NCBI RefSeq assembly: GCF_024498175.1
Contig: NZ_CP101823.1
Span: forward strand, 682,001-746,000
Direction of reading: 5' to 3'
Source: Haloplanus salinarum
GTDB lineage: Archaea; Halobacteriota; Halobacteria; Halobacteriales; Haloferacaceae
Length of the DNA: 64,000 nucleotides
A program made the translations under genes and the position numbers. Of this stretch, positions 10,447 through 26,900 are shown one piece after another. The number at the start of each line of letters is the position of its first letter. Within the stretch, counting starts at the first letter, position 1. The notes beneath the pieces are model-generated. The model did no database searches. It had not been told where the DNA came from and saw nothing but the letters and a program-made list of their open reading frames with translations.

Positions 10447-11165
10447 CTCGCCGCGACGAGGGCGACGAGTACGACGCCGACGACGGCGTACCCCCCGCTC
10501 TCGTACTCGGGGACCGGCATCCGGCCGGCGTAGTTGCGCGACGCCATGGCGCGTTCGAACGCCTCCGCCCGGTCGATCGATCCCACCAGCAGCGAGGCGC
10601 CGACGAGTTTCGTCGTGCGAAACAGGGCGCGCCGCGAGTCGAACCCACCGCGGAGGCGGGCGGCCGTGTGGAGCCGTGCCGACCGCTCGACGAGGACCTG
10701 GATGCCGCGGTAGACGAGCAGGAGAAGTTCGATCACCGCCGACGGCAAGCGGAGGTCGTCGAGGGCGGCGACCAGTTCGGGGACCGTCGTCGTCAGCGCC
10801 AGAAAGGAGAGCACGGAGAGCGACGCCACCGCGCGCAGGCCCGTCCGCGCCGCGACGGCGAGGCCGCGGTCGGTGATGGTCACGGCCGGCAGGTCCAGAA
10901 CCGGCGCGCCGGGGGTGACGACGGCGACGACCAGCAGGCTCGGCACCAGGAAGGCGAGGGGATACCGGAGGAGCGCGACGTAGGCCCGCCCCGCGGCGTG
11001 GATCGACAGACAGGCGAAGGCGACGGTGGCGACGGCGTAGACGGCCGGTCGCGTCGTCGTCGCGGTGAGCAGGAGCGCGACGAGGACGAAGTACACCCGT
11101 AGCGGCCCCTCGACGACGGGCGTGGCGGTCACCTGGACGTCCTCAAGCGTCCGGTGCATCCCCAT
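10434..11165 (-). CDS. cbiQ: Cobalt ECF transporter permease CbiQ
   Basis: This is the T-component (about 243 residues) of the cobalt transporter, with five or six hydrophobic segments and the cytoplasmic helices that contact the ATPases. Near 170-205 lies the Arg/Ala-rich ARLHTAARLRGGFDSRRALFR, corresponding to the conserved ARG signature region. I chose ATG 11165 (MGMHRTLED), overlapping the cbiN end by 23 bases; ATG 11159 is an alternative. It is co-transcribed with cbiM, cbiN and cbiO. Confidence 0.88.
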   Translation of the reverse strand: MGMHRTLEDVQVTATPVVEGPLRVYFVLVALLLTATTTRPAVYAVATVAFACLSIHAAGRAYVALLRYPLAFLVPSLLVVAVVTPGAPVLDLPAVTITDRGLAVAARTGLRAVASLSVLSFLALTTTVPELVAALDDLRLPSAVIELLLLVYRGIQVLVERSARLHTAARLRGGFDSRRALFRTTKLVGASLLVGSIDRAEAFERAMASRNYAGRMPVPEYESGGYAVVGVVLVALVAARWVA

Positions 11166-11415
11166 CACTCGCTCGCAACCGGTCGAGGTACCGTCCGAGC
11201 AGGACCGCGCCAACGCCCCCCTGGAGAGCGAAGAGGAGGGCCTCGCCCGTCGCGTCGGGCGCCCAGGCGGGCGTCGCCCACCGGTCGTACGTCGGGGACC
11301 GCTCCTCGATTTCGGCAACGGCCTGCCCGTCGGTTCCCGCGAGGTCGCCGCCGGCCGTCGCGAGGAGGAAGACCACGGCGGCGACGACGCCGCCGAGCAG
11401 CAGGCTGCGTCTCAC
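11143..11415 (-). CDS. cbiN: Cobalt transport protein CbiN
   Basis: This is a 90-residue membrane protein with two transmembrane helices: SLLLGGVVAAVVFLLA at the start and GEALLFALQGGVGAVLLG near 65. The extracellular loop between them carries the family-like ERSPTYDRWATPAWAP. CbiN makes metal loading of CbiM possible. The start codon is GTG at 11415, overlapping the cbiM stop (GTGA), which is why ATG-only gene callers may miss or lengthen it. Confidence 0.88.
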   Translation of the reverse strand: MRRSLLLGGVVAAVVFLLATAGGDLAGTDGQAVAEIEERSPTYDRWATPAWAPDATGEALLFALQGGVGAVLLGRYLDRLRASDGDAPDA

Positions 11416-12074
11416 GACGCCACCCCCACCCGGCTCCCGTCGAGCGTGTCGAGACGGCACAGGTAGCCCACCATCGCCGCCGCGAGGAGGCCCTCGAGCA
11501 CGCCGATGGGGAGCTGTGTGACGGTGAACACCGCCGCGAAGTCGAGCGCCGACGCGAGGACGCCGCCCGGGTCCGCCCCCGCGGGAAAGGCCAGCCCGAG
11601 TTGGAACGAGGTGACGAGATACGTCGTCCAGTCGGTGACCGCCGCGGCGACGAAGGTGGACCGTTCGAGCGACAGTCGCGGCCGGACGAGCCGGTACGCC
11701 GTCCACCCGACGAAGGGGCCGACGACCCCCATCGAGAGGACGTTGGCACCGAGGGTCGTCACGCCCCCGTGGGCGAGGAGGAGCGCCTGGTAGAGGAGGA
11801 CCACGACCGAGACGAAGGCGGTGACGGCGGGGCCGAACAGCACGACGATGAGGCCCGTCCCGGTCGGATGCGAGGAACTCCCCGCCACCGAGGGGAGTTT
11901 GAGCGCCGAGAGGACGAACACGAACGCCGCACACACCGCGACCAGCGCCTTGGTGCGGGGATCGGTCCGAACGGCCGACAGCGTCCGCCGCGCGCCGTAC
12001 GCCACGAACGGGAGTGCGAGGACCGTCCAGACGACCGCCCAAACCGGTGGCAGGAATCCCTCCATGATGTGCAA
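11412..12074 (-). CDS. cbiM: Cobalt ECF transporter substrate-binding membrane protein CbiM
   Basis: This is the 220-residue S-component. It begins MHIMEGFLPP, the family's invariant N-terminus; the N-terminal amine and His2 coordinate cobalt, so the start is certain. The metal-site loop also includes the His in SSHPTGTGLIVVLFGP. Six hydrophobic segments follow. It is the first gene of cbiMNQO, divergent from cobA, so uptake and synthesis share one control region (12075-12218). Confidence 0.93.
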   Translation of the reverse strand: MHIMEGFLPPVWAVVWTVLALPFVAYGARRTLSAVRTDPRTKALVAVCAAFVFVLSALKLPSVAGSSSHPTGTGLIVVLFGPAVTAFVSVVVLLYQALLLAHGGVTTLGANVLSMGVVGPFVGWTAYRLVRPRLSLERSTFVAAAVTDWTTYLVTSFQLGLAFPAGADPGGVLASALDFAAVFTVTQLPIGVLEGLLAAAMVGYLCRLDTLDGSRVGVAS

Positions 12075-12218
12075 GTCGAGATCACTTCCCGTCGGTGCCG
12101 ACTACCTCCCGTGTAAAAACAATACCGCTTGCGATAACGAAACTGCACTTTGGAAACACCTCCCTTCCGCCAGAAACACAAGTAGATTGAAGTTACTGCA
12201 ATCAGCGCTTATCCACCG
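12075..12218. promoter_or_regulatory. Divergent control region of cbiM and cobA
   Basis: This 144-base AT-richer spacer drives the uptake operon (minus) and cobA (plus). Before cobA it holds ACAAGTAGATT (12178-12188) and TTACTGCAAT...TTATC (12193-12213). Similar elements precede cbiT, chlID and cobN. No cobalamin riboswitch-like structure was recognised. Confidence 0.5.
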
Positions 12219-13115
12219 ATGGAAGAGGACACCGCTCGGGGACCGGGAACGGGGAACGGACCGCCGGGACGCCCCCGGGACGCCGACGACGAGACGATCC
12301 GCCAGCCCTTCGACCGCGAGACGTCGACCCCGGAGCGGTCGCGGGCGACGGCGGGCCAGGTGTATCTGGTCGGCGCGGGGCCGGGCGATCCGGACCTGCT
12401 CACCGTCCGGGCGCGGCGGCTCATCGAGACCGCTGACGTGGTGTTTCACGACGCCCTCACCCGTGATACGCTGGTTCACCGCATCCCCGGAGCGGTTGAG
12501 GTCGTCGACGTCGGCAAGCGGGCCGACCGGAAGACGCCACAGGCGGAGATCAACGAGCGACTGGCCGACCGCGCGGCCGCCGGCGACGCCGTCGTCCGCC
12601 TGAAGGGCGGCGACCCGTTCGTCTTCGGCCGCGGCGGCGAGGAGGCCCAGTACCTCGCCGACCGCGACGTCGGGTTCGAGATCGTGCCGGGCGTCTCCAG
12701 CGTGATCGCCGCCCCCGGACTGGCCGGCATCCCGCTCACCCACCGCGACGTCTCCTCCCGCTTCACGGTCATCACGGGCCACGAGACGCCGGACAAGGGC
12801 GCGAGTACGCTCGACTGGGCCGCGCTCGCCGACGAGATCCGGAACGGGTCGACGCTCGTCATCCTCATGGGCGTCCGGACGCTGGAGCGCAACGTCACCG
12901 CCCTCCGGTCGCACGGCGTCGACGGCGACGTCCCCGTCGCCCTCGTCCAGAAGGCCGCCTGGGACGACCAGCGCGTCGTCCGGGGCTCCCTCGAGACCAT
13001 CGTCGACGACGCCGAGGACTCCGCGATCACGCCCCCCGCGACCACCGTCGTCGGCGACGTGGTCTCGATCCGCGACGACGTCGCCGCCGTCCTCGACGAG
13101 TTCGAACCGGCCTGA
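12219..13115 (+). CDS. cobA: Uroporphyrinogen-III C-methyltransferase (SUMT)
   Basis: This enzyme makes precorrin-2 from uroporphyrinogen III by two SAM methylations, the branch point into cobalamin. The 298-residue protein has the P-loop-like VYLVGAGPGDPDLLT at about 48-62, RLKGGDPFVFGRGGEEA near 130, PGVSSVIAAP and the GIPLTHR motif. The first 45 residues are an acidic, Arg-containing extension absent from bacterial SUMTs. It heads the plus-strand cobalamin genes. It could also feed siroheme or heme d1-type branches, but its place argues for B12. Confidence 0.9.
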   Translation: MEEDTARGPGTGNGPPGRPRDADDETIRQPFDRETSTPERSRATAGQVYLVGAGPGDPDLLTVRARRLIETADVVFHDALTRDTLVHRIPGAVEVVDVGKRADRKTPQAEINERLADRAAAGDAVVRLKGGDPFVFGRGGEEAQYLADRDVGFEIVPGVSSVIAAPGLAGIPLTHRDVSSRFTVITGHETPDKGASTLDWAALADEIRNGSTLVILMGVRTLERNVTALRSHGVDGDVPVALVQKAAWDDQRVVRGSLETIVDDAEDSAITPPATTVVGDVVSIRDDVAAVLDEFEPA

Positions 13116-13150
13116 GTCGCCGCGTGGGGTGAAACCCCGCTTTTTGTAGG

Positions 13151-13162
13151 ACAAGCAAAATT
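13151..13162 (+). promoter_or_regulatory. Shared ACAAGnA-type element before cbiT
   Basis: ACAAGCAAAATT lies 32-43 bases before the cbiT start. It resembles ACAAGTAGATT before cobA and ACAAGTAAACTT before chlID (minus strand). It may be a TATA-type element or an operator of the cobalamin regulon; the match was made by eye. Confidence 0.4.
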
Positions 13163-13193
13163 GTTTTCATCCGGCCCCGAAATTGTGGTGGTG

Positions 13194-13751
13194 ATGCCTC
13201 AGGTAGCGCTTCCGCACGACGCGAAGGCCGGGCCGACGAAAGCGGAGATACGTGGAGTGACGCTCCGGAAGTTGGACTTGCAGCCCACGGATCACTTCGT
13301 CGACGTCGGCTCCTGTACCGGCGCGGTCACCGTGGAGGCGGCCCGTCGCGCCGGCCGGGTGACGGCCGTCGAGCGAAAGCCCGACCGGCTGGAGGTGACC
13401 CGGAAGAACCTCGCCGCCAACGAGTACGACGCCGAGGTGTCGCTTCGCGAGGCGGAGGCGCCGGCGGGGCTTCCGGACGACGCGGACGCCATGTTCCTCG
13501 GTGGGAGTCGGAACTTCGAGGCCGTCCTCGATCACGCCGTGGAGACGGGCGTCGACCGGGTGGTGATGAACGTCTCCCGCGTCGAGGTGGCGGGCCGTGC
13601 CGTCGACGCCTTCCGCGACCGGGACCTCCTCTCGGAGGTCCTCCAGATCCAGGTGAACCACGGCTACGAACTCGCCGGCGCGACGAGCTTCCGGGCGGAC
13701 AACCCCGTCTACGTCGTCGTCGGGCGCCGCGACGGGGGCGGTCTCGCGTGA
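13194..13751 (+). CDS. cbiT: Cobalt-precorrin-6B C15-methyltransferase (decarboxylating) CbiT
   Basis: This enzyme methylates C15 and removes the C12 acetate carboxyl of the corrin precursor. The 185-residue Rossmann methyltransferase has the SAM motif DVGSCTGAVTVEAAR near residue 38, followed by VTAVERKPDRLEVTRKNL and LGGSRNFEAVLD. I chose the ATG at 13194 (MPQVALPHDA) because it begins the family's conserved P-x-T-K-x-EIR region. It overlaps cbiL at GTGA and is partner to CbiE further downstream. Confidence 0.9.
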   Translation: MPQVALPHDAKAGPTKAEIRGVTLRKLDLQPTDHFVDVGSCTGAVTVEAARRAGRVTAVERKPDRLEVTRKNLAANEYDAEVSLREAEAPAGLPDDADAMFLGGSRNFEAVLDHAVETGVDRVVMNVSRVEVAGRAVDAFRDRDLLSEVLQIQVNHGYELAGATSFRADNPVYVVVGRRDGGGLA

Positions 13752-14455
13752 CCGTCTACGGCGTCGGCCTCGGCCCCGGCGAGGCCGACCTGATCACCGT
13801 CCGCGGCAAGCGGGTCCTCGAATCCGCGTCGACCGTTCACTCGCCCGGCCGCCTCTCGCGGTCGGTCGCCCGCGAGTACGTTCCCGACTCCAAGCTCGGC
13901 GACCTCGACTTCCCGATGACCCGCGACCCCGAGAAACTCCGGCGGGCGTGGCGGACGGCCGCCGACGCCGTCGCCGAGACGGCGGCCGACGAGGACGTCG
14001 CCTTCGTCACCCTCGGCGACCCGAACGTCTACTCGACGTTCGGACACCTCCGGCGGACGCTGTCGGCCTTCCACCCCGACGTGGACGTGGCGGTGGTGCC
14101 GGGCGTCAGCGCCGTGACGGCCTTCGCGACGGCGCTCGGCGTCGAGATCGAGGCCGGGACCGGCCTCTCGCTCCGGGAGGCCGCCGACGGCGCGGCGCCG
14201 ACCGGCCCCGATCGGATGATCCTGTTCAAGGTCACCGACGCGGTGGCCACCCACGAGGGACTCGTCGACGCCGGCTACGACGTCCGCTACGGTCGCCGCC
14301 TGTTCATGGAACAGGGGGAGACCACCGTCACGAGCGACCCGACGGAGGTGGCCGAGCGCGACTACTACACGCTCGCGTACGCCGAACGGCGGGGGCTGGA
14401 GCGCGACCTGGCGACCGCCGCCTTCGAGGACGGCGAGCGGGAGGGGTCGGCGTGA
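13748..14455 (+). CDS. cbiL: Cobalt-factor II C20-methyltransferase CbiL
   Basis: This adds a methyl at C20 of cobalt-factor II. The 235-residue tetrapyrrole methylase opens VYGVGLGPGEADLITVRGKRVL, and ALGDPNVYSTF-type and PGVSAVTAFA motifs follow. The start is GTG at 13748, overlapping the cbiT stop. The cbiF start overlaps its end. Length and motifs fit CbiL. Confidence 0.88.
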   Translation: MTVYGVGLGPGEADLITVRGKRVLESASTVHSPGRLSRSVAREYVPDSKLGDLDFPMTRDPEKLRRAWRTAADAVAETAADEDVAFVTLGDPNVYSTFGHLRRTLSAFHPDVDVAVVPGVSAVTAFATALGVEIEAGTGLSLREAADGAAPTGPDRMILFKVTDAVATHEGLVDAGYDVRYGRRLFMEQGETTVTSDPTEVAERDYYTLAYAERRGLERDLATAAFEDGEREGSA

Positions 14456-15264
14456 GAAACGATCACACCGCCGGCGACGTCCGCGAGGGCGTCCCCTTTA
14501 TCGGCGCCGGCCCCGGCGACCCGGGGCTGCTCACCGTCACCGGGAAGCGCCTCGTCGAGGACGCGGACCTCGTCGTGCACGCCGGCTCGCTGGTCAACAG
14601 CGAACTGCTGGAGGCGTACTGCGACGACGCGGAGCAGGTCAACAGCGTCGGCAAGGACCTCGAAGAGTTGGTCCCGCTGATGGCCGAGGCCTACGAGGCC
14701 GGGCGGACGGTCGTGCGCCTGCACAGCGGCGACCCCGCCGTCTACGGCGCCGCCCTGGAGCAGATGGACGCCCTCGACGACGAGGGTGTCCCGTCCTACT
14801 TCGTGCCCGGCGTCACCTCCGCCTTCGCCGCCAGCGCGACCCTCGGGACGCAGTTGACGCTCAACGAGGTGGCCAACCACGTCGCCTTCACCCGGCCACA
14901 GGGCAAGACCCTCTCGGCCGAGGAGGACCACATCAGCGACTTCGTCGGCTTCGGCGACGTGACGACGTGCATCTACCTGGGGACCCACGCCGTCAGCGAC
15001 ACGATGGACCGCCTGCTCGACGACGGCCACGATCCCGAGACGCCCGTCGCGGTCGTCTACCACGCCTCCTGGCCCGACGAGGACGTGATCCGGGGCACCA
15101 TCGGAACCATCGGCGAGCAGGTCGAGGCGGCGGGCTACCGCGCCTCGGCGCTAGTGATAATCGGCGAGGCGGCCACCGGCGCCGGGTACGAGCGGTCGTA
15201 CCTGTACGGCGACTGGGCGAACGACGACGACAGCGACACCGAGAGCGACACGAACCATGACTGA
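14452..15264 (+). CDS. cbiF: Cobalt-precorrin-4 C11-methyltransferase CbiF
   Basis: This methylates C11 of cobalt-precorrin-4. The protein has 270 residues with the opening VPFIGAGPGDPGLLTVTGKRL at about 14, LVVHAGSLVNSELL, RLHSGDPAVYGAALEQM and VPGVTSAFAASATL, the classical CbiF/CobM signature. The C-terminus is an Asp/Ser tail. The start is GTG at 14452, inside the end of cbiL. A longer in-frame extension upstream is the shadow of cbiL and is not coding here. The stop overlaps the cbiG start. Confidence 0.9.
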   Translation: MRNDHTAGDVREGVPFIGAGPGDPGLLTVTGKRLVEDADLVVHAGSLVNSELLEAYCDDAEQVNSVGKDLEELVPLMAEAYEAGRTVVRLHSGDPAVYGAALEQMDALDDEGVPSYFVPGVTSAFAASATLGTQLTLNEVANHVAFTRPQGKTLSAEEDHISDFVGFGDVTTCIYLGTHAVSDTMDRLLDDGHDPETPVAVVYHASWPDEDVIRGTIGTIGEQVEAAGYRASALVIIGEAATGAGYERSYLYGDWANDDDSDTESDTNHD

Positions 15265-16225
15265 GAGCACTACCGACACGACGGACGACGGCTGTAGCAC
15301 CCCGGACAGCGACGGGGAGGTCGCCGACGAGATCGCGATCGTCAGCTTCGAGCGCAAACTCGACACGGCCGAGGAGATCGAAGCCGGCCTCGCGGCCGAC
15401 TACGACCGCATCGACATCCTCGAGTACCACGGCGACGTCTTCGCGGAGCACTGGGGCGAGTACGACTGCTTCGTCGGCCTGATGGCCAGCGGCATCGCCA
15501 TGCGCAAGACCGCACCCCTGCTCGACGACAAGTGGGACGACCCCGCGGTGGTCGTCGTCGACGAGGAGCTGACGTGGGCCATCCCGCTCACCGGCGGCCA
15601 CCACGGCGCGAACCAGGTAGCGAACGACCTCGCGGGCCTCGGCGCCGTGCCCGCGATGACGACGGCGTCGGAGGCGGCGGGCAAGCAGGGCGTCGAGAGC
15701 CGCGCGAAGGCCCTCGACACCCACGTCGTCAACGGCGACTCGACGGTGGCGACGAACCTCGCCGTCCTCGACGAGAACCTGGGACCGGTCGCCCGCCTCG
15801 ACGGGCCGCGGGCGGTCCTCGTCGGCGACGACGTGACCGTCCTCAAGCGGAACACGGAGGCGGGCGTCGTCCTCGGCACCGGCAGCGTCTCCGGCGCCGA
15901 CGCCGAACAGTTCCTGACCGCCTGGCGCGCGGCTCTCGACGAGGCGGACCTGACGCCCGACGACGTCGAGTTCGTCGCGACGGCGACCCGCAAGGAGGAC
16001 GAACCCGGCCTGATCGAGGCCGCACGGGAGTTCGGCGTCGGAGTGGCCTCCCTCGACAAGGAGACCCTGGAGGCCTTCGAGGGGCCGACCCCCTCCAAGT
16101 CGAAGGAGCTGATCGGCTGGCCGGGCATCGCGGAGGCGAGCGCCATCGCGGCCGGCCGCGACCACGAACTCCTCGTCGAGAAGCGGCGACACGACGACGC
16201 GGTCACCGTGGCGGTGGGCCGATGA
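15257..16225 (+). CDS. cbiG: Cobalt-precorrin-5A hydrolase CbiG
   Basis: This opens the delta-lactone of cobalt-precorrin-5A, releasing acetaldehyde, a step specific to the early-cobalt pathway. The 322-residue protein has an N-terminal domain with CFVGLMASGIAMRKTAPLL and IPLTGGHHGANQVA, and a C-terminal domain with VLGTGSVSGADAEQF, FVATATRKEDEPGLIEAA and the ending ASAIAAGRDHELLVEKRR, as in CbiG. A 22-residue acidic leader precedes the fold. It overlaps both neighbours. Confidence 0.9.
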   Translation: MTESTTDTTDDGCSTPDSDGEVADEIAIVSFERKLDTAEEIEAGLAADYDRIDILEYHGDVFAEHWGEYDCFVGLMASGIAMRKTAPLLDDKWDDPAVVVVDEELTWAIPLTGGHHGANQVANDLAGLGAVPAMTTASEAAGKQGVESRAKALDTHVVNGDSTVATNLAVLDENLGPVARLDGPRAVLVGDDVTVLKRNTEAGVVLGTGSVSGADAEQFLTAWRAALDEADLTPDDVEFVATATRKEDEPGLIEAAREFGVGVASLDKETLEAFEGPTPSKSKELIGWPGIAEASAIAAGRDHELLVEKRRHDDAVTVAVGR

Positions 16226-17034
16226 CCGATCACGGCACCCTCTACGTCGTCGGCATCGGGCCGGGGCTGCCCGCCCACATGACCCAGCGGGCGCGCGAGG
16301 TCATCACCGGCGCCGACTGTGTCATCGCCTCGAACCTCTACCAGGAGTTCCTCCGGCAGGACGGGACGCTCCCGCCCGAGGGCGAGGGCGGCGAGGCTGA
16401 CCCCGAGGTCGTCCGCTCGTCGATGGGACAGCAGGTCGAACTCACCCGCGAAGCCTTCGAGCGCGTCCGGGACGGCGAGGACGTCGCCAACGTCTCCGGG
16501 GGCGACCCGAACGTCTACGGCAAGTCCGACCTCGTCTTCACGATGGCCGACGCCGACGACGCCACGGACGTCCCGATCGAGATCGTCCCCGGCGTGACCG
16601 CGGCGCTCGGCGGCGCGGCGATGATGGGCGCGCCCCTCTCGAACGACTTCTGTACCGTGTCGCTGTCCGACAAGTGGCGCGGCTGGGACGAGATCGAGGA
16701 GAAACTCCGCGCGGCCGCGATCAGCGACTTCGTCGTCGTCCTCTACAACTGCTGGCGGAACTACGAGCGGGCGATCGGGATCCTCCGCGAGGAGCGGGCC
16801 GACGACGTGCCGGTCGGCATCTTCAACGACGCCGGCCGGGGCGACGCCGGCCGGAACGTCGACGGGGAGGCGTTCACCGTCACGACGCTCGGCGAGGCGG
16901 CGGCCCACGAGGAAGACGTCGGCGGCATGGGCACGTCCATCCTCGTCGGCACCCACGAGACCGACACCTGGCGCAACGACCACGAAACGTACCTCGTCAC
17001 CCCGCGCGGCGGGCGTGACGTCGAGGACTTCTAA
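16222..17034 (+). CDS. cbiH: Precorrin-3B/cobalt-factor III C17-methyltransferase, CbiH-type (copy 2)
   Basis: This 270-residue tetrapyrrole methylase has LYVVGIGPGLPAHMTQRARE at the N-terminus, NVSGGDPNVYGK, PIEIVPGVTAALGGAAMMGAPL and FVVVLYNCWRN, matching the CbiH/CobJ family (ring contraction and C17 methylation of cobalt-factor III). It starts at ATG 16222, overlapping the cbiG stop. A second CbiH follows directly. The motif GIGPGLPAHMT, with an inserted LPAH, is unusual compared with GxGPG(D/E) in the other copy, so the two may have different roles. Confidence 0.85.
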   Translation: MTDHGTLYVVGIGPGLPAHMTQRAREVITGADCVIASNLYQEFLRQDGTLPPEGEGGEADPEVVRSSMGQQVELTREAFERVRDGEDVANVSGGDPNVYGKSDLVFTMADADDATDVPIEIVPGVTAALGGAAMMGAPLSNDFCTVSLSDKWRGWDEIEEKLRAAAISDFVVVLYNCWRNYERAIGILREERADDVPVGIFNDAGRGDAGRNVDGEAFTVTTLGEAAAHEEDVGGMGTSILVGTHETDTWRNDHETYLVTPRGGRDVEDF

Positions 17035-17036
17035 CC

Positions 17037-18035
17037 ATGAGCGAGACCAACGCGAACGACGGATCGAGGTGTGGCGCGACGACCGATACCGACGCGGCGG
17101 CGACCGACACGTCGGAGTCGAAGTGCGGCGGATCGACGACGGAGACGTCGGAGTCGAAGTGCGGCGGGTCGAAGTCGGAGACGTCGGAGTCGAAGTGCGG
17201 CGGGTCGAAGTCGGAGACGACCGACGAGAACGTCACGGCGACGGCCGACGACTTCGACGCCGACCCCGGCCGACTCGTCGCCGTCGGCCTGGGCCCCGGC
17301 GAGGCGAGCGGGATGACCGCCCGGGCGACGGAGGCGCTCCGTGGCGTCGAGCATATCGTCGGCTACACGACGTACGTCGACCTCCTCCCCGACGACGTCG
17401 TCGAGGCTGCAGAGGACGTCTACTCGACGCCGATGTGCGGCGAGGTGTCGCGAACCGAGGAGGCGGTCGACCGGGCGCTCGCCGGCAACGAGGTGGCCAT
17501 CGTGGGGAGCGGCGACCCGAACGTCTACGCGCTCGGCGGCCTCGCGCTCGAGATCCTCGAATCCAAGGGTGGATCGGCGAGCGCCGTCGACTTCGAGGTG
17601 GTGCCCGGGGTGCCGGCCGCCCAGTCGTGTGCGGCCCGTCTGGGCGCCCCCCTCGTCAACGACACCGTCAGCATCAGCCTCTCCGATCACCTGACGCCGA
17701 TGCCGACCATCGAGTCCCGCCTGCACGCGGCCGCCAAGGAGGGGTTCACGATCGCGATATACAACCCCTGGAGCCGCAAGCGCCGGGAGAACTACCAGAA
17801 GTGTTGTGAGATCCTCCTCGAACACCGCGACCCCGAGACGCCGGTGGGGATCGTCCACGCCGCGGGCCGCGAGGACGAGGAGACCGAAATCGTGGAACTG
17901 CGCGACCTCCCGGAACTCGGCGAGTCCGACCTCGTCGACATGACGACGACGCTTCTGGTCGGCAACGACGAGACCTACGTCTGGGACGGTCGGATGGTGA
18001 CGCCGCGTGGCTACGAGCGGAAATACGAGTACTGA
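17037..18035 (+). CDS. cbiH: Precorrin-3B C17-methyltransferase CbiH (copy 1) with Cys-repeat N-terminus
   Basis: This 332-residue protein has its methylase domain at about 77-332: LVAVGLGPGEASGMTARATEAL, IVGSGDPNVYALGGLA, VVPGVPAAQSCAARLGAPL and FTIAIYNPWSRKR, a standard CbiH. The first 75 residues are a hydrophilic tail with Cys at 12, 30, 42 and 54; the last three lie in a 12-residue repeat ESKCGGS(T/K)(T/S)ETS. Evenly spaced Cys suggest metal or cluster binding, comparable to the Fe-S-bearing CbiH60 of bacilli, though that one is C-terminal. It starts 3 bases after the previous stop. Confidence 0.88.
   Translation: MSETNANDGSRCGATTDTDAAATDTSESKCGGSTTETSESKCGGSKSETSESKCGGSKSETTDENVTATADDFDADPGRLVAVGLGPGEASGMTARATEALRGVEHIVGYTTYVDLLPDDVVEAAEDVYSTPMCGEVSRTEEAVDRALAGNEVAIVGSGDPNVYALGGLALEILESKGGSASAVDFEVVPGVPAAQSCAARLGAPLVNDTVSISLSDHLTPMPTIESRLHAAAKEGFTIAIYNPWSRKRRENYQKCCEILLEHRDPETPVGIVHAAGREDEETEIVELRDLPELGESDLVDMTTTLLVGNDETYVWDGRMVTPRGYERKYEY
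17115..17222 (+). repeat. 36-bp tandem repeat encoding the Cys repeats of CbiH
   Basis: Three head-to-tail 36-base units encode ESKCGGSxxETS-like 12-mers. The units are nearly identical in DNA (core GAGTCGAAGTGCGGCGG), showing recent expansion or correction. The array keeps the reading frame. Confidence 0.85.
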
Positions 18036-18036
18036 G

Positions 18037-18279
18037 ATGTTCCGCGTCGAACTCGATCGGGAGGCCTGCGACGGCATCTTCGCCTGTCTCGTCCGCGACG
18101 ACCGCTTCGTCGAGGACGACGCCGGCCTCGCGACGGTCGATCCGACGGCCGAGGGCGTGGTCGACGTCGAGCGGGCGGGCGAGCGCGTGATCGCCACCTT
18201 CGACGGCGACGTCGAGGACGCGACCCTCGCCGCGCGGGCCTGCCCGCCCGACGCCATCACCGTCCGGGAGGAACCATGA
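18037..18279 (+). CDS. Ferredoxin-like protein, 3Fe-4S-type Cys pattern
   Basis: This 80-residue acidic protein has Cys at 11, 17 and 69 in the pattern CDGIFAC ... ARACPPDAI. The C-x5-C spacing with a late CP motif is that of small [3Fe-4S] ferredoxins. The start is ATG 18037, one base after the cbiH stop; an in-frame upstream start would sit inside cbiH. It lies between cbiH and cbiX genes, so it likely supplies electrons to corrin ring contraction or to another redox step of the pathway. Confidence 0.75.
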   Translation: MFRVELDREACDGIFACLVRDDRFVEDDAGLATVDPTAEGVVDVERAGERVIATFDGDVEDATLAARACPPDAITVREEP

Positions 18280-18935
18280 CCGCCGAGGCACCCGCCGACC
18301 TGCTCGAGTGTCACCCGGAGACGGCCTACTTCTGGGGCCACGTCGCCGGCGACGGCGACGTCCGGGCGGACGGCCTCACCGTCCGGGCGCCGGACGAGGG
18401 CTGTGCCGACCGCCTCGTCGAAATCGCGGGCGGCGGCGACGTCGACCACCGCCGGACGGAACGCGAGTACGCCCACGATACGTCGATCACCCGGACCGAG
18501 GACGAGTACCGCGTCACCGTCGCCGGCGACGTGGCCGCACGCGGGAGCGCCGCCTTCGGCCTCCCGACGGGCGACGAGCGGGGCGGCTACCGCTTCGACG
18601 CCCTCGCGGACGCCCACCGGCAACTCCTCCGGGGACTCCTGGAGAGCTGCGGGACGGTCTGTTTCAAGTCCTCCTCGGGGACCGTGGGCATCTCCTTCGT
18701 CCACGACGACCGGACGCTGCTGGAGGCGGTCCAGGGGCACCTCGCGGACTGCCCGGTCGACGCCCCGGCCGACGACATCGGGGAGACGTCCTCCGGCGGC
18801 TACTGGTTCGGGATCGACGACGCGGCCGCCGGTCCGTTCGGCCGCTGGGTGTACGAGGGGAGCGAGGCGAGCGAGCTGTTCGCGCCGACGCGGCGGCGCA
18901 AGTTGCTCCGGAGCCTGGAGCAGGTGGAGGGATGA
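18276..18935 (+). CDS. Cobalamin-operon protein with LAGLIDADG-like motifs
   Basis: This 219-residue protein lies between the ferredoxin and cbiX genes, overlapping both. It carries two helices that look like LAGLIDADG motifs: AYFWGHVAGDGDV (17-29) and LLRGLLESCGTVCF (117-130). Each is followed by a strand-rich stretch, and the C-terminus ends FAPTRRRKLLRSLE, like homing endonucleases. The first keeps the acidic residue (D26), while the second has Cys (C125) there. It is not an intein or free-standing nuclease by context. Likely a domesticated fold with a B12-related role, unknown which. Confidence 0.65.
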   Translation: MTAEAPADLLECHPETAYFWGHVAGDGDVRADGLTVRAPDEGCADRLVEIAGGGDVDHRRTEREYAHDTSITRTEDEYRVTVAGDVAARGSAAFGLPTGDERGGYRFDALADAHRQLLRGLLESCGTVCFKSSSGTVGISFVHDDRTLLEAVQGHLADCPVDAPADDIGETSSGGYWFGIDDAAAGPFGRWVYEGSEASELFAPTRRRKLLRSLEQVEG

Positions 18936-20143
18936 TCGACGAGCAGCCGCTCGACGACGACGCGGTCCTGCTCGTCGGCCACGGCTCCCGCCGCGAGAAG
19001 TCGAACGAGCAGGTGCGCACGCTGGCGGCGGACCTGGAGGCCGAACTCGACCTGCCGGTCGACGCGGCCTACCTCGAACTCGCCGACCCGCCCATCGGGG
19101 AGGCCATCGAGACGCTCGCGCCCGCCTGCCGGACGCTGACCGTCGTCCCGCTGTCGCTGTTCGGCGCGAGCCACGTCAAAAACGACGTGCCGCTTGCCGT
19201 CCAGACGGCGCGGGCCCGACACGACGACCTGACGATCCACTACGGCTCGCATCTGGGCGTCCACCCGTCGCTCGTGGACCTGCTCGACGACCGCGTCCGC
19301 GCCGTCGAGGCCGACCTCGGTGTCGATCGGACCGAGGACGACGTGGCCGTCGTCGTCTGTGCCCGCGGGTCGAGCGATCCGGACTCGAACGCCGACGTGC
19401 ACAAACTCGCGCGGCTCCTCTACGAGGGCCGCGAGTTCGACCGCGTCGAGGCCTCGTTCATCGGCGTGACGTCGCCGCTCCTCGACGAGACGCTCCACAC
19501 CGTCACGAAGAGCCGCCCCGACGCGGTGGTCGTCGTCCCGTACATGCTCGGCGACGGGACGCTGACGGGGCGCATCGTCGACACGGCCGAGTCCTTCGAC
19601 GACGAGTACCCCTACGTCGCAGCGGGCGCGGGCGCCCCGCTCGGGGTCGACGACCGGGTCGTCGACGTCCTCGTCGACCGCTGGCGGGCGGCCCGCTCGG
19701 ACAGCGTCGAGATGTCCTGTGACACCTGCAAGTACAAGGTCGAACTCTCGGGCTACGAGGAGGACCAGGGCGGGGCACGCGCCATGCTGCGCTCGCTCGT
19801 CCATCAGGCGGAACACGCCGACCGTGAGGACGTCGGCGACGACCCGCACGTCCACGACGCGCCCGAAAAGCACGTGGCGGTCTGCACCAACCAGACGTGT
19901 GCCGAGAGCGGATCGGCGGCGGTCATCGAGGGACTCCGGCAGGGCGTCCGCGACGCCGAAGACTGCGACGCCCGGATCACCCGCACCTCCTGTCTCGGAC
20001 AGTGCGGGGACGGCCCGATGGTCGCCGTTTACCCCGACGGCGTCTGGTACGGCGGCGTCACCGCCGACGACACCGACCGCATCGTCTCGTCCCACCTCGA
20101 CCGGGACCGCATCGTCTCCGAACTCGTCCACCAAACGCTATAA
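18932..20143 (+). CDS. cbiX: Sirohydrochlorin cobaltochelatase CbiX with C-terminal thioredoxin-like ferredoxin domain
   Basis: This inserts Co2+ into sirohydrochlorin at the start of the early-cobalt branch. The protein has 403 residues. The chelatase (about 1-245) is a duplicated CbiX fold with LLVGHGSRREKSNEQ and the second-half VVVCARGSSDPDSN. A linker with CDTCK (about 260-264) and a His/Asp-rich DDPHVHDAPEKH follows. The end (about 315-395) has CTNQTC ... TSCLGQCGDGPMVAVYPDGVWYGGV, a thioredoxin-like [2Fe-2S] ferredoxin. The start is ATG 18932. The fused domain may be redox or metallochaperone-like. Confidence 0.9.
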   Translation: MIDEQPLDDDAVLLVGHGSRREKSNEQVRTLAADLEAELDLPVDAAYLELADPPIGEAIETLAPACRTLTVVPLSLFGASHVKNDVPLAVQTARARHDDLTIHYGSHLGVHPSLVDLLDDRVRAVEADLGVDRTEDDVAVVVCARGSSDPDSNADVHKLARLLYEGREFDRVEASFIGVTSPLLDETLHTVTKSRPDAVVVVPYMLGDGTLTGRIVDTAESFDDEYPYVAAGAGAPLGVDDRVVDVLVDRWRAARSDSVEMSCDTCKYKVELSGYEEDQGGARAMLRSLVHQAEHADREDVGDDPHVHDAPEKHVAVCTNQTCAESGSAAVIEGLRQGVRDAEDCDARITRTSCLGQCGDGPMVAVYPDGVWYGGVTADDTDRIVSSHLDRDRIVSELVHQTL

Positions 20144-20520
20144 TGGCTTGCGCAGAACTCGAAGCGCTTCGACTCGCACTGATGAACATGACCGGTACCG
20201 TCGACGAGAGCGTCAAACAGCACGCCGAGGCCGAAATCGGCGACGAACTGGAGGCCGGCGGCCCCATCGCGGCGCTGGCCGCGGCCGAGACGCTCGACGA
20301 GATACAGCGCCACCTCGAAGCGGCCCTGATCGACCTCGAAGAGGAGGCGATGGCGGCCGACGCCACCGACCCAGACGGGGCCTACCTCCGGGGACGGGTC
20401 GTCGCCGTCCGCGACGCCGAACGCACCGTGCGCCGGCTCCGTGAGCGGACCGACGCCGTGCTCGACGACCTCGGCGAGGCCCACCACACGCTCCACGAGA
20501 CGTTCCCGACGGAGGAGTGA
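20143..20520 (+). CDS. DUF3209-family protein
   Basis: This is a 125-residue, all-helical, acidic protein beginning MACAELEALRLALMNMTG; the pattern ending in DDLGEAHHTLHETFP is typical of DUF3209. The ATG overlaps the cbiX stop (TAATG), so translation is coupled to the chelatase. The Cys, His and Glu residues could hold metal, and a role as cobalt chaperone to CbiX is conceivable; no activity is established from sequence. Confidence 0.8.
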   Translation: MACAELEALRLALMNMTGTVDESVKQHAEAEIGDELEAGGPIAALAAAETLDEIQRHLEAALIDLEEEAMAADATDPDGAYLRGRVVAVRDAERTVRRLRERTDAVLDDLGEAHHTLHETFPTEE

Positions 20521-21758
20521 TGCCCGAACTCGTCGACCCGGCGCGGCGGTCGCTGGGCGACCTGTCCCCTGCGGGGAGCCGCCACAACCGGGCGCGCTCC
20601 GGGGCGGCTATCGCCGACGACCGTCTCTTCGCGGGCGGGGCCGACGGACGCGTGGCCGCGCACCGCCCCGACGCGACGCCCTTGGAGGGCTGGGCGGGCC
20701 CGGGCGACCAGTCGACGGCCGACGAGCGGTACGCCGTGTCGCTGGCGGCGACGGCGGATACGCTCGTCGTCGGCGAACGCGGCCCCGACGGCCGCGTCGC
20801 CGCGCTGTCGCCGGCCACGGGCGAGGTCCGGTGGCGCTACGCCACCGCGGCGGACGTCGGGACGGCGACTCGGGAGTCGCTTCTCTTCCAACCGTACGTG
20901 GTCGACGCGGCCGTGATCGACGACACGGCCGTCGTCGCCGCCCGGCGGTACGACCGTGACGGCGACGACCGGACGTGGCCGAGCGTCGTCCTCGGGGTCG
21001 ACCCCGACGGCGGCGTCCAGTGGCGCTACGCCGCCCACGCCTCGCCCATCGCCGTGGACGTCGGCGACGGGCGCGTCGTCGTCGCGTACAACCGCTGTAC
21101 GGCCGACCACGTGTACGGTCTGGTCGTCCTCGACGCCGATTCGGGGGCCCTCCTCGCCAACTGGGACCCCGGAACCGAGGGTGACCGCCGCGTCGGCGAC
21201 GTGGCCGTCGTCGACGACGGCATCGCCGTCGCGAGCCACGGCGACAAACACGGCTACCTGCTCGATTTCGACGGCGGCGAGCGGTGGCGGGTCGACCTGG
21301 CGAGCGAGCGGTCGGTCGACGGCGACACGGTCTACGCCTACCCGAACCACGTCGCCGTCGCCGACGGAACCGCCGTCTTCGTGACGGGCAACACCTACGC
21401 CGCGTCGACCCGCGACCCGGACGCCCGCCACCCGCGGGAACATACGGCCGTCGCCGTCGACGGCGGCGACGTCGCCTGGACCCACGACGTCGGCGGGTTC
21501 GCCCGCGGCGTCGCGGCCAACGGGTCGTTCGTCGCCGTCCCCTCGGCACAGCACTTCCGGGAGCGGTCGGCCGACACCCACGCGGTCCACCTCCTCGACG
21601 CGACCCGGGGCCACCTCGATTCACGGTCGCTGCCGGGCGTCGCCGCGGCCGTGGCGCTCGGTGACGACGCCCTCGCCGTCGTCGAGGAACCCGTCGAGTA
21701 CCACGACGAGGGCGTCACGCACGGGACCCACCGCCTGCACGCGTGGCGGGTCCGTTAG
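20520..21758 (+). CDS. PQQ/WD-type beta-propeller protein of the cobalamin cluster
   Basis: The protein has 412 residues, with at least five blade-like repeats carrying tryptophans such as GEVRWRYATA, GVQWRYAAHA and GERWRVDL and interspersed LVVLDADSGALL-like strands. It has no signal peptide or anchor, so it should be cytoplasmic. The start is ATG 20520; a GTG one codon earlier (20517) overlaps the DUF3209 stop. It is the last plus-strand gene before the convergent chlID, with which it overlaps by 4 bases. Function is not known; a scaffold or sensor of the pathway is a guess. Confidence 0.7.
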   Translation: MPELVDPARRSLGDLSPAGSRHNRARSGAAIADDRLFAGGADGRVAAHRPDATPLEGWAGPGDQSTADERYAVSLAATADTLVVGERGPDGRVAALSPATGEVRWRYATAADVGTATRESLLFQPYVVDAAVIDDTAVVAARRYDRDGDDRTWPSVVLGVDPDGGVQWRYAAHASPIAVDVGDGRVVVAYNRCTADHVYGLVVLDADSGALLANWDPGTEGDRRVGDVAVVDDGIAVASHGDKHGYLLDFDGGERWRVDLASERSVDGDTVYAYPNHVAVADGTAVFVTGNTYAASTRDPDARHPREHTAVAVDGGDVAWTHDVGGFARGVAANGSFVAVPSAQHFRERSADTHAVHLLDATRGHLDSRSLPGVAAAVALGDDALAVVEEPVEYHDEGVTHGTHRLHAWRVR

Positions 21759-23923
21759 TCCCGCTCGACCGACGCCGCGGCGTCGGCGACGACGTCGGCG
21801 GTGAGGTCCGACAGGGGAATCCGTCGCCCGCCGGTCTCCTCCTCGATGATTCCCGTCACGCCCGTTCCGCCGCCGGCGTCGACGGGGGCCGAAGACTCTC
21901 CGCCCCCACCCGGACGACGTTCGGCGGCGTCGACGAGGACGACCGACGCGTCGCTTTCCGCCAGCCGGCGGGCCGCGGCGCGGGTCGCCGCCGTGGGGCT
22001 CCCCTCGGCGACGTTCGCGCGCCCGTCGGTCACGACGACGACGAGTCCGGCGTCCGCGTCGGATCGCGTCACGAGTCGGGTCGCCGTGTCGAGTCCGTCC
22101 GGGAGGGGCGTCCGGTCGCCGGTCGGCAACTCCTTCAGGTGGCGGGCCGCGAGCGTGACGCTGTCCGTCGGCGGGAGCAACACCTCCGCCTCGTCGCCGG
22201 CGACGGCGACGAACGCCACCTCGTCCCGCCGCTCGTAGGCGTCGCGCAGGAGCGCCATGACCGTCCCCTTGGCCTCGCGCATCGCCGGGCGCATCGACGC
22301 GCTCGCGTCGACGACGAAGACGACGAGCGTCCCCGCACTCCCGCGCCGGACGGACCGCCGCAGGTCGTCCTCGCCCACGTCGGCCCGTCCCGCGGCCGCG
22401 GCGGCCCGGACCGACGCCGCCGCGTCCACGTCGTCGCCCGGGCCCGCGCGCTCGGTCCGCACCCGCGAGCCACGCGACCCCGCGGCGGCGTCGGTCCGGG
22501 CGCGGGACCCGCTCCCGTCGCTCGTCGACGCCGTCACGTCGTCGGCGGGCGGGCGCTCGGCGTCGCCCACCTCGGCCCGCCGCTGACCGGGGACCAGCGG
22601 CGTCGCCTCGTCCTCCGCGTCGCCGTCGCTTCCGCCGTCGCCGTCGCTTCCGCCGTCGCCGTCGGATCCGTCGCCGCCGCCCTCGCCACCGCCGCCAGCC
22701 GGTCCCGACCCCTCGGCGCTCGACGGCGCCGACTCCCGGGTCGGGCCGTCGCCCTCGGCGTCCCCCTCGCCGCCGGGCCCGTCCCCGCTCGACCCGTCGT
22801 CCGCCCCGCCGGTGTCGGCGTCACCCTCGCCGTTTTCGTCGCCGTCTGCGTCACCCTCGCCGTTTTCGTCGCCGTCTGCGTCACCCTCGCCGTTTTCGTC
22901 GCCATCGCCGTCGCCATCGCCGTCGAAGTGATCGTCGAGGACGTCGTCGGGGTCGGGTTCGTCGTCGAAGGGACGGCGCCGGAGACGGTGGGGGAGCGCG
23001 AACGCCGCCGCCTCGCGGACGTCCGAGCGGAGCACCTTCGCCCGGCCGTCGAGCGCCGCGAGCGTTCGCGCGGTGCGGGCGGTGGCGATGTCGGCCCGGT
23101 GGCCGTCGACGCCCGCGTCGCGGCACAGTTCGGCGATGTCGGTTTTGAACTCCTCGGGGAGGGTCACGTCGCCGACGCGTCGCCGCGCGTCGCGCAGTCG
23201 CTCGCGGAGGGTGTCGGTCTCGTCGTCGTACGCGGCGGCGAACGTCTCGGGGTCGGCGTCCCGGTCGAGGGCGCGGTCGATGACCTCGACCCGGTCGTCG
23301 ACGGCCTCACAGCCCGTGACCGTCGCCTGGAGGGCGAACCGGTCGCGGAGCTGTGGGCGGAGGTCGCCCTCCTCGGGGTTCATCGTCCCGACGAGCGTGA
23401 ACTCCGCGGGGTGGGTCCGACTCACGCCGTCGCGCTCGACCCGGTTGACGCCGCTCGCGGCCGCGTCGAGGAGGACGTCCACCAGGTGGTCGTCGAGGAG
23501 GTTCACCTCGTCGACGTAGAGGATCCCCCGGTTGGCGCGGGCGAGGAGGCCGGGGTCGAACGCGGCGTCGCCGTCCAAGGCGTCGGCCACCGACAGCGTC
23601 CCGACCACGCGCTCGCGGGTCGCGCCGAGCGGGAGGGTCACCAACGGGACCGACCGCGTCTCGACCGGCGGGTCGGCCCGCTCCCGACACGACGCACACT
23701 GCCTGTCCGGGTCGGCCGGCGGACAGCCGTACGGACAGTCCGCGACCGCGCGCTGCTCGGGCAACAAGTCGACCAGCGCCCGGACGGCCGTGGACTTGGC
23801 CGTCCCCTTCTCCCCGCGGACCAGCAGACCGTCGAGCGCGTCGTTCGCCGTGACGGCCAGCAACGCCCGCTTCAACTCCTCCTGCCCGACGATGGCCGGG
23901 AACGGTGTGTGGTGACGCTCCAT
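21755..23923 (-). CDS. chlID: ChlI-ChlD fusion, ATPase/VWA subunit of CobN-type cobaltochelatase
   Basis: This is a 722-residue fusion of AAA+ and von Willebrand A domains that would power metal insertion by CobN. AAA+ marks are Walker A RGEKGTAKST (near 38), the Cys-rich insert CPYGCPPADPDRQCASC typical of BchI/ChlI, Walker B GILYVDEVNLL, and GTMNPEEGDLRPQL. The middle is a long acidic linker (about 335-450) with DENGEGDADG repeats. The VWA domain has the MIDAS FVVDASASMRPAM near 540. It is divergent from cobN with only 49 bases between the chosen start codons. Confidence 0.9.
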   Translation of the reverse strand: MERHHTPFPAIVGQEELKRALLAVTANDALDGLLVRGEKGTAKSTAVRALVDLLPEQRAVADCPYGCPPADPDRQCASCRERADPPVETRSVPLVTLPLGATRERVVGTLSVADALDGDAAFDPGLLARANRGILYVDEVNLLDDHLVDVLLDAAASGVNRVERDGVSRTHPAEFTLVGTMNPEEGDLRPQLRDRFALQATVTGCEAVDDRVEVIDRALDRDADPETFAAAYDDETDTLRERLRDARRRVGDVTLPEEFKTDIAELCRDAGVDGHRADIATARTARTLAALDGRAKVLRSDVREAAAFALPHRLRRRPFDDEPDPDDVLDDHFDGDGDGDGDENGEGDADGDENGEGDADGDENGEGDADTGGADDGSSGDGPGGEGDAEGDGPTRESAPSSAEGSGPAGGGGEGGGDGSDGDGGSDGDGGSDGDAEDEATPLVPGQRRAEVGDAERPPADDVTASTSDGSGSRARTDAAAGSRGSRVRTERAGPGDDVDAAASVRAAAAAGRADVGEDDLRRSVRRGSAGTLVVFVVDASASMRPAMREAKGTVMALLRDAYERRDEVAFVAVAGDEAEVLLPPTDSVTLAARHLKELPTGDRTPLPDGLDTATRLVTRSDADAGLVVVVTDGRANVAEGSPTAATRAAARRLAESDASVVLVDAAERRPGGGGESSAPVDAGGGTGVTGIIEEETGGRRIPLSDLTADVVADAAASVERD
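22821..22910 (-). repeat. 30-bp tandem repeat in the ChlID acidic linker
   Basis: Three nearly identical 30-base units code for 10-residue EGDADGDENG-type repeats in the linker between AAA+ and VWA domains. The frame is kept. Repeat number probably varies between strains. Confidence 0.85.
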
Positions 23924-23972
23924 GTGAATACGAAAGTTTACTTGTAGTACCGCAATAATGCTTTATCAACTC
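23924..23972. promoter_or_regulatory. Divergent control region of chlID and cobN
   Basis: In 49 bases there is ACAAGTAAACTT on the minus strand (23934-23945) facing chlID, and GTACCGCAAT...TTATC (23947-23967) facing cobN. The second has the same spacing to the ATG at 23973 as a similar element has to cobA (5 bases). This supports ATG 23973 rather than 23958 as the cobN start. Confidence 0.5.
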
Positions 23973-26900
23973 ATGCCGACGATCGGGCTGTACACGGCGA
24001 CCGAGAACGAATTGGGAGCGGTCCAGCGGGCGGCTGGACGTCTCGACGACGTCGACCTCGTGGTCCGCTCCGAGAGCGACCTCGACGACGGGACCGATAC
24101 CGACGCGTTCGTCGACGAGGTCGAGTCCGCGACCGCCGTGGTGCTCTGGTTGCACGGCTCGGAGGGGAGCATGCCGGGCTACGACCACGCCGTCGAGCGA
24201 CTTCGGGACGCGGGCGTCCCGCTGATCGTCAAGGCGACGGGCGACGCCTTCGCGTTCGAGGACACGACCGTTACCGCGGACGACCGGGACCGTGTGTACG
24301 AGTATCTCGACGGCGGCGGCGTGGTGAACCTCGCCAACTGCTGTCGGTTCCTCGCCGCCACCTACGACGACGTCGACGTCGCGTACGACGACCCGGTCGA
24401 CCTCCCGACCGAGGGCGTCTACCACCCCGATCACCCCGGGATCGAGTACGAGGAGCTCCTGGCGACACACGACGAGGGCAAGCCCACCGTCGGCGTCTGG
24501 TTCTACGAGTCCCACTGGACGCACGCGAACACGCGGTACGTTGATGCGCTCGTCCGAAAGTTGGAGGAACTGGGAGCGAACGTCCTCCCCGCCTTTTGCA
24601 ACCCGGCGAGCGACGAGGCGGGCCAGGAGAACGCGGAGTGGGTCGCGCGCAACTGGTTCAGCGACGACGACGGCCCCGTGGTCGACGCCGTCGTGAGTTC
24701 GTTCATGTTCTCGCTGTCGATGAGCGAACGTGGACGGGCAGCGAGCGACGAGGGCGAGGGCGCCGAGGACGTCTTCCTCACGGAACTGGGCGTCCCCGTG
24801 TTGCAGGCCATCACGACCATGCGCTCCCGGTCGCGCTACGAGTCGAACGACACGGGCGTGATGGGCTTCGAACTCGCGCTGTCGGTCGCACTCCCCGAGT
24901 TCGACGGCAACGTCATCACCCACCCGATCAGCGGCAAGGAGCGCATGGACGACGAGGCGGGCATCGGGAGCGCCCCGAAACAACATTTCCCCATCGACGA
25001 CCGGATCGACCACGTCTCCCGGCTGGCGGTCAACTGGGCGCGGCTCCGAGACGTCCCCAACGACGAGAAATCGGTAGCGGTCGTCCTCCACAACTACCCG
25101 CCGAGCGACGACGGCATCGGGACTGCCTTCGGCCTCGACAGCCCCGAGAGCACCGTCAACCTGCTCGACGAACTCGACGCGCGGGGCTACGCCGTCGAGG
25201 ACTCGCCGACCGACGGCGCGGAACTCATCGACCGGCTCACCGCCCAGTTGACCCTCGATTCGCGGTGGGTCGCCCCGGAAGACGTCCGGGAGCTGAGCGT
25301 CGACACCGTCTCGCCCGAGCGGTACGCCGAGTGGTTCGCGACCGCCGACGAACGGTTTCGGGAGAACGTCATCGAGGAGTGGGGCGACCCTCCCGACCGG
25401 CCCTTCGCCATCCCCGGCGTCGAGTACGGGAACGTCCTCGTGACCGTCCAGCCGCCCCGCGGGTTCGGGATGGACCCCTCGAAGGTCTACCACGACTCGG
25501 ACCTCCAGCCGCCACACGACTACTTCGCCTTCTACGCGTGGCTGCGCGAGGCGTACGACGCCGACGCCGTCGTCCACCTCGGCACCCACGGGAGCCTGGA
25601 GTGGCTCCCCGGCAAGACCGTCGGCCTGAACGGGGCGAGCGCGCCGGATAGGCTGATCGACGACCTGCCGAACGTCTACCCCTACATCGTCAACAACCCG
25701 GGCGAGGGGACACAGGCCAAGCGCCGCTCCTACGCGGCGGTCGTCGACTACCTGACGCCGGTGATGAGCAACGCCGGGACCTACGACGAACTCGCGGAAC
25801 TCGAGGAGCTGGCCGACCAGTACCGCGAGGCCGGGATGGAGGACGCCCGCAGCGACGACGGCGAGCACCTCGAAACCCTCCTGCGCGAGAAGGTGGACGA
25901 CCTCGACCTCGCGGTAGAACTCGGGATCGCCGGCGGGATCGACGACCGAGCCGACGTCCGCGGTCCGGACGCGGCCGGCTCCACGCTGGCCGAGGGGGCG
26001 GTCGCCGGCGACGACCTCTCGGTCGACGAACTGGTCGAGCGGGTACACGAGTACCTCACCGACGTGAAGACGACCCAGATCCGGATGGGGCTGCACACGA
26101 TGGGTGAACCCCCGGAGGACGACCGGCTCGTCGAGTACCTCGTCGCGCTCACGCGTCTGGAGAATCCCGGCGGACCCAGCCTCCGGGAGAGCGTCGCGGG
26201 CGTCCTCGGCGTCGACTACGGGCGGATGCTCGACGAACCGGGCGCGTACGACGAACGGCTGGGCATGACCCTCTCGGAGGCGGCCGACGAGGTGTACGAA
26301 ACCAGCCTCGACCTCGTCGGGACGCTTGCAGCCAACGACTTCGACGTGCCGGAGTCGGAGGCGACGGCCGACCCCGACGACGAGGTGAACATGAACCTCT
26401 TGGTCGTGGATATCGACCCGCTGGGCGACGCCCGTGCCAAGCGGGGCGCCCACGACGACCTGCGCGAGGCGCTGTCGTTCATCCGTGACGTGGCCGCGCC
26501 ACGGGTCCGGGGCGCCGAAGCCGAGATCCCCCGGACGGCGGACGCCCTGGCCGGCGGGTACGTCCCCCCGGGCGGCAGCGGCGCCCCGACCCGCGGCGGC
26601 GTCGACCTGCTGCCGACGGGGCGGAACTTCTACACGCTCGACCCACGGAAGGTGCCGGCCAGGAGCGCCTGGCAGGTGGGCAAGGAGGTGGCGACGGGGA
26701 CTCTCGAACGCCACCACGCCGAACACGACGAGTACCCCGAGGAGGTGGGCGTCGTCGCGTGGGGGACGCCGACGGTGCGGACCCGCGGCGAGACGGTCGC
26801 ACAGGTGCTCGCGCTGATGGGCGTCGAGCCGACCTGGACCGACGCCGGCCGCGTCGACGACGTCGAACCGATCCCGCTGGAGGAGCTCGGGCGCCCTCGC

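Follow-up and report, generated by a model that had tools for sequence, protein, structure and literature searches.

An open reading frame at positions 18276-18935 (forward strand) of the window, by which we mean the whole stretch of 64,000 nucleotides of Haloplanus salinarum analysed here, is present as the earlier note had it and codes for a predicted nuclease-dead LAGLIDADG protein of 219 residues. The protein is a domesticated LAGLIDADG member, and in the cobalt-early B12 operon of haloarchaea its gene is conserved as a single block together with those for a ferredoxin and for the cobaltochelatase CbiX. We infer, tentatively and with a probability of about 0.38, that it may act as a thiol-based metal-handling accessory of the cobalt-insertion (CbiX) step by means of the residues E123, C125 and C129.

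A structure was predicted with confidence (mean pLDDT 92.7, pTM 0.90) from an alignment of 80 sequences, in which the window protein is joined by 79 relatives from public genomes. The model has two lobes related by pseudo-symmetry, which meet at the two LAGLIDADG helices and show the alpha-beta-beta-alpha-beta-beta-alpha core, the first lobe being composed of helix 14-26, strands 27-30 and 33-38, helix 41-51, strands 55-65 and 68-83 and helix 86-94, and the second of helix 107-125, strands 126-131 and 136-143, helix 146-157, strand 176-180 and helix 182-193. The two LAGLIDADG helices recognised in the earlier note are therefore present in the model, at 14-26 and 107-125, with D26 and C125 as their last residues. 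The best Foldseek match in the PDB is I-Tsp061I (E 9.8e-8), to which VIA-align superposes the model with a Z score of 16.2 (184 residues, 3.1 A); the scores are 15.6 over 167 residues for I-DmoI and 14.7 for the LAGLIDADG domain of WhiA, so the structural comparison that had been advised as a check came out in favour of this fold. The whole model of 219 residues falls within the LAGLIDADG alignment, with a terminal helix at 204-218, and no helix-turn-helix (HTH) domain such as the C-terminal one of WhiA was found in the protein. At the sequence level, 14 of 30 family members searched singly match the Pfam family LAGLIDADG_3 (best E 1.9e-5); the window protein alone has no significant match in Pfam or NCBIfam, and neither the single protein nor the family profile gave anything but chance matches when searched against the PDB sequences. 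Judged on the model, the protein is a LAGLIDADG fold and the fold match is unambiguous. It shares the whole fold and the two lobes with I-Tsp061I and I-DmoI, which are archaeal monomeric LAGLIDADG homing endonucleases, but differs from them in the replacement of the catalytic acids (D, S, G or N at position 26, Cys at position 125) and in the fixed place of its gene within a biosynthetic operon. A domesticated, catalytically dead LAGLIDADG domain likewise occurs in WhiA (DUF199); there, however, DNA is bound by a C-terminal HTH, which the window protein lacks, and the window protein carries an invariant Cys pair.

In homing nucleases the metal-binding acids sit at the last residue of each LAGLIDADG helix. 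Such an acid does not end each helix in the present family. The first motif (residues 17-29, AYFWGHVAGDGDV, 18324-18362, forward strand) keeps Asp26 in the window sequence, as previously noticed, but this residue is not conserved, position 26 being Asp in 36 of the 80 aligned sequences, Ser in 31, Gly in 8 and Asn in 5. The stretch covering the second motif and the beginning of the following strand (residues 117-130, LLRGLLESCGTVCF, 18624-18665, forward strand) harbors a Cys at position 125, that of the catalytic acid, and here the initial observation extends to all 80 sequences. Since Cys125 has replaced the catalytic acid throughout and Asp26 occurs in 36 of 80 only, the family is, as read from the alignment, nuclease-dead and its nuclease metal site is gone. 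E123, C125, G126, T127, C129, K131, H67, Y65, W20, W177 and others are invariant (80/80), and the LRGLLESCGTICYKK core with its CxxxC pair is kept in the most divergent homologue found (genome G069, 33% identity). In the model, His67 belongs to a beta-hairpin rather than to the former active site, and its role may differ from that of E123, C125 and C129.

The gene overlaps the ferredoxin gene upstream and cbiX downstream through ATGA junctions. The small ferredoxin (Fer4_15; 18007-18279, forward strand), which may really begin at the ATG at 18037, has three cysteines only (CDGIFAC and RACP); its cluster may therefore be of the 3Fe-4S type, or of the 4Fe-4S type if another ligand takes part. 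On the same strand, cbiX (18932-20143) codes for a bilobal cobaltochelatase with an MSCDTC motif and a C-terminal thioredoxin-like [2Fe-2S] ferredoxin domain (residues 311-386; 19862-20089), and is followed by two co-occurring accessory genes, coding for a DUF3209 protein (20143-20520; HVO_B0053 by synteny) and a PQQ/BamB-like beta-propeller protein (20517-21758; HVO_B0052 by synteny). Upstream lie the cobalt-early pathway genes cbiT, cbiL, cbiF, cbiG, cbiH1 and cbiH2 (13194-18035, forward strand), and the operon neighbourhood also includes cobA/sumT, a ChlID-like chelatase subunit, cobN and cbiC, chlID and cobN being named by position after PMC8305020. A divergent cobalt ECF transporter (cbiM, cbiO) is located at 9703-12074, and an Rfam search of positions 9000-29000 found no riboswitch. 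The product of cbiH2 (17037-18035, forward strand) bears an N-terminal extension of Cys-Gly-Gly/Ala-Ser repeats (17037-17260) that co-varies with the accessory module and may bind metal or a cluster. At least two of these Cys repeats are present in 76 of the 80 upstream stretches read from genomes with the LAGLIDADG gene and also in G369, a genome without it, and they are absent from the remaining genomes read that do not have the gene. Nearly every cluster read, also in genomes without CbiD, has two tandem CbiH paralogues (16222-18035 in the window, forward strand).

The order ferredoxin, LAGLIDADG gene, cbiX is found in 80 of 80 loci, with the ferredoxin directly upstream and cbiX directly downstream, so that the description of the gene as a fixed operon member stands, as does that of a domesticated nuclease fold. 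Among 392 genomes of the order, CbiG is present in 199, the LAGLIDADG family in 193 and both in 192; the only genome with the family and no CbiG is G488, an 88% complete assembly. A search of 393 sampled genomes of the phylum gave no match to the family beyond the order. In G016, where the cluster is split, the LAGLIDADG gene remains with CbiX and not with the ferredoxin. A free-standing homing endonuclease, decaying or still active, that happens to be parked in the operon would account for the fold, but hardly for anything else: the catalytic acids are lost across the family, the sequence is strongly conserved, the position is fixed over the order in co-occurrence with CbiG, and the gene neither interrupts a host gene as part of an intron or intein nor shows a sporadic distribution. 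We consider it extremely improbable. In G069 the genes that are clustered elsewhere are scattered over contigs, and the divergent homologue is found among closely packed genes on one strand, in the order CDF cation transporter, homologue, rhodanese and second CDF cation transporter (L130, 6445-9454), an apparent operon that provides, in one genome, an independent context for metal or sulfur handling. On the same contig, an open reading frame (11362-13443) looks like a dCTP deaminase split by an intein that carries LAGLIDADG motifs of its own. It lies 3 kb away from the domesticated homologue, and this closeness is probably a coincidence.

The Haloferax loci that we read have the order CbiH2, ferredoxin, LAGLIDADG protein, CbiX, and HVO_B0055 of Haloferax volcanii occupies the same spot of the same gene cluster, between the ferredoxin and cbiX1. 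The window gene is assigned to the HVO_B0055 family by synteny, from the locus tags of PMC8305020 and a comparison with Haloferax loci other than that of H. volcanii. Pfeiffer and Dyall-Smith listed HVO_B0052, B0053, B0055 and B0056 as unassigned genes of the cluster and obvious candidates for the CbiD and CbiJ gaps (PMC8305020); the two enzymes are reported to be missing in Halonotius too (PMC6719526). RefSeq names the homologues, including orthologues on other replicons, "cobalamin biosynthesis protein". Neither these names nor the main text of PMC8305020 mention LAGLIDADG for HVO_B0055, and searches of the main texts of papers for LAGLIDADG together with cobalamin or chelatase found none linking them; the LAGLIDADG link of the family appears to be undescribed so far. 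One of the four unassigned haloarchaeal B12 candidate genes is thus given a fold and a testable site. WhiA and HO are known domesticated LAGLIDADG proteins, and to our knowledge the characterised ones all act on DNA. With a clearly dead family of this fold tied to the synthesis of a cofactor, the fold would have a use that does not involve nucleic acids.

Nine genomes with CbiG do not harbor the LAGLIDADG gene (G026, G049, G068, G070, G095, G369, G541, G615 and G659). Eight of them keep cbiT-L-F-G-H1-H2, and in the regions read these eight have no ferredoxin, LAGLIDADG gene, DUF3209 protein, PQQ protein or [2Fe-2S] tail of CbiX. All nine possess a short CbiX with a His-rich tail, whose place is occupied by the [2Fe-2S] domain in 76 of the 77 readable loci with the LAGLIDADG gene (of 80, three being unreadable for the tail owing to contig ends or an N run). 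The exception is L078, in which the LAGLIDADG gene, the ferredoxin and the PQQ protein stand alongside a His-tailed CbiX. Conversely, G369 retains the ferredoxin, [2Fe-2S] CbiX, DUF3209 and PQQ genes, and a second, short His-tailed CbiX (L137, 10703-11644) is found exactly where four congeners have the LAGLIDADG gene. A strict coupling of the gene to the [2Fe-2S] type of CbiX is broken by these two cases. In a tree of the CbiX core, whose root is an assumption based on CbiX-L of Bacillus megaterium, known to be His-rich (PMC7689651), one branch (100/98) separates all the [2Fe-2S] types from the rest, with L078 adjoining them; the [2Fe-2S]-tailed CbiX has one origin, and L078 resembles an intermediate. 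On this tree the tail changes once and the LAGLIDADG gene twice, and a test on independent pairs is without power; a contingency test of the gene against the tail ignores shared descent and was not counted as evidence. The pattern, which amounts to about one event with two exceptions, fits an order of events in which the LAGLIDADG gene and the ferredoxin came in first and the His tail was lost later.

These observations lead us to place the protein tentatively at the CbiX step, which the earlier note had not considered, because genomes without the gene have the short His-tailed CbiX and those with it the [2Fe-2S]-tailed one, and because in G369 a His-tailed CbiX takes its very place. E123, C125 and C129 are found where the second LAGLIDADG helix ends, the place at which homing nucleases use acids to hold Mg2+, and could form a putative metal site. 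Such a site would bind a soft metal, either Co2+ or an Fe-S/Fe species, and the protein would hand metal to the [2Fe-2S]-tailed CbiX, or gate metal for it, and so take over what has been proposed in the literature as the function of the His-rich tail in the older CbiX-L type, namely to store and deliver metal. In B. megaterium CbiX-L, whose layout is the same as that of the His-tailed haloarchaeal CbiX, the C-terminal extension comprises a 4Fe-4S centre (MXCXXC) and a His-rich region that has been proposed to store and deliver metal, and deletion of the extension leaves cobalt insertion unaffected, so that the tail is not needed for catalysis (PMC7689651). CbiX-L acts at the cobalt-insertion step to which the LAGLIDADG gene is tied; it is a chelatase and no homologue of the LAGLIDADG protein, and is named here only for the function that the latter may complement. 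The fold, the invariant residues, the fixed gene order, the co-occurrence with CbiG, the pattern of CbiX tails and the CDF context in G069 all point to a role at this step. On the other side, the correlation between tail and gene comes down to about one switch with two informative exceptions, and thus to few independent evolutionary events, and L078 shows that the gene and a His-tailed CbiX are not mutually exclusive. Moreover, the same co-variation is seen for the ferredoxin, the DUF3209 protein, the PQQ protein and the Cys repeats of CbiH2, so that the protein may serve the ferredoxin or another partner. As a possible but rather doubtful scenario, the Mg2+ site would have turned into a thiol site, the gene would have joined the B12 operon together with the ferredoxin, and the His tail of CbiX would then have been lost in favour of the [2Fe-2S] domain, L078 representing an intermediate and G369 a reversal. 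If true, the fold of a selfish DNA nuclease would have become a metal-handling partner of a cobaltochelatase.

A further reading is that of an Fe-S or redox partner: the protein would help to assemble the [2Fe-2S] domain of CbiX or to reduce it, or would carry electrons between CbiX and the ferredoxin, and so shield an oxygen-sensitive pathway in aerobic cells. Two Fe-S proteins flank the gene in 80 of 80 loci, the CxxxC pair is invariant, the CbiH2 Cys repeats follow the same distribution and a rhodanese adjoins the G069 homologue; in addition, four genomes without the gene (G068, G070, G095 and G541) show no haem-copper oxidase and may belong to anaerobes. However, the oxidase is present in the five others (G026, G049, G369, G615 and G659), for which reason a distribution restricted to aerobes was rejected, L078 pairs the gene with a CbiX devoid of the [2Fe-2S] domain, and G369 retains the ferredoxin and the [2Fe-2S] CbiX without it. 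We regard a redox partner as unlikely. Even less probable is the suggestion of the earlier note that the protein replaces CbiD (C1-methylation) or CbiJ (reduction). Both families are absent (Pfam PF01888 and PF02571) from all 99 relatives' genomes searched, and HVO_B0055 is among the four candidates for these gaps; yet the window protein itself matches neither Pfam family, its fold is LAGLIDADG and no SAM- or nucleotide-binding fold, and the nine genomes listed above run the CbiG pathway without the gene. Five of these nine were among the 99 searched and have neither enzyme, and the persistence of the pathway genes without the LAGLIDADG gene, CbiD or CbiJ disfavours such a replacement. CbiH1, found in all clusters read, is the likelier methylase and likely substitutes for CbiD, as also suggested in PMC8305020. 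The evidence against HVO_B0055 being CbiD or CbiJ narrows the search for those enzymes.

The earlier note had also thought of a regulator; this would be a DNA-binding regulator of the cobalamin operon, in which the LAGLIDADG saddle would still recognise a long DNA site without cutting it, by a domestication of the WhiA type. The part of this idea that holds is the closeness of the fold to the WhiA domain (Z 14.7), together with the ability of LAGLIDADG proteins to bind DNA and the presence of a very conserved motif in the operon promoter. The motif ACAAnCAAAATTGTTTT (13151-13168, forward strand) lies upstream of cbiT, whether or not a genome has the LAGLIDADG gene: AAAACAATT occurs in 47 of 48 diverse cbiT upstream regions of 300 bases each, while shuffled regions give no 9-mer in more than 5. 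The window copy, ACAAGCAAAATTGTTTTC, is the only match within two mismatches genome-wide and, at 26-43 bases upstream of the ATG at 13194, overlaps the place where a TATA element is expected; it is likely the operator of the cobalamin operon. Nevertheless, its core ATTGTTTT is also present upstream of cbiT in genomes without the gene, so that the conservation of this motif, the sole strongly conserved one found in the promoter, does not depend on the LAGLIDADG protein; something else presumably reads it, and the regulatory role is weakened. The protein further lacks an HTH, which the degenerate LAGLIDADG protein WhiA needs for DNA binding (PMC3781837), its gene sits between the ferredoxin and the chelatase and not beside a promoter, and its catalytic acid has given way to an invariant Cys instead of drifting. 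A regulator thus seems to us an unlikely explanation, on a par with a redox partner, and the metal-handling role at the CbiX step is preferred. The mechanically predicted start of the cbiT open reading frame (TTG at 13161) falls inside the promoter motif, and the real start of cbiT is probably the ATG at 13194.
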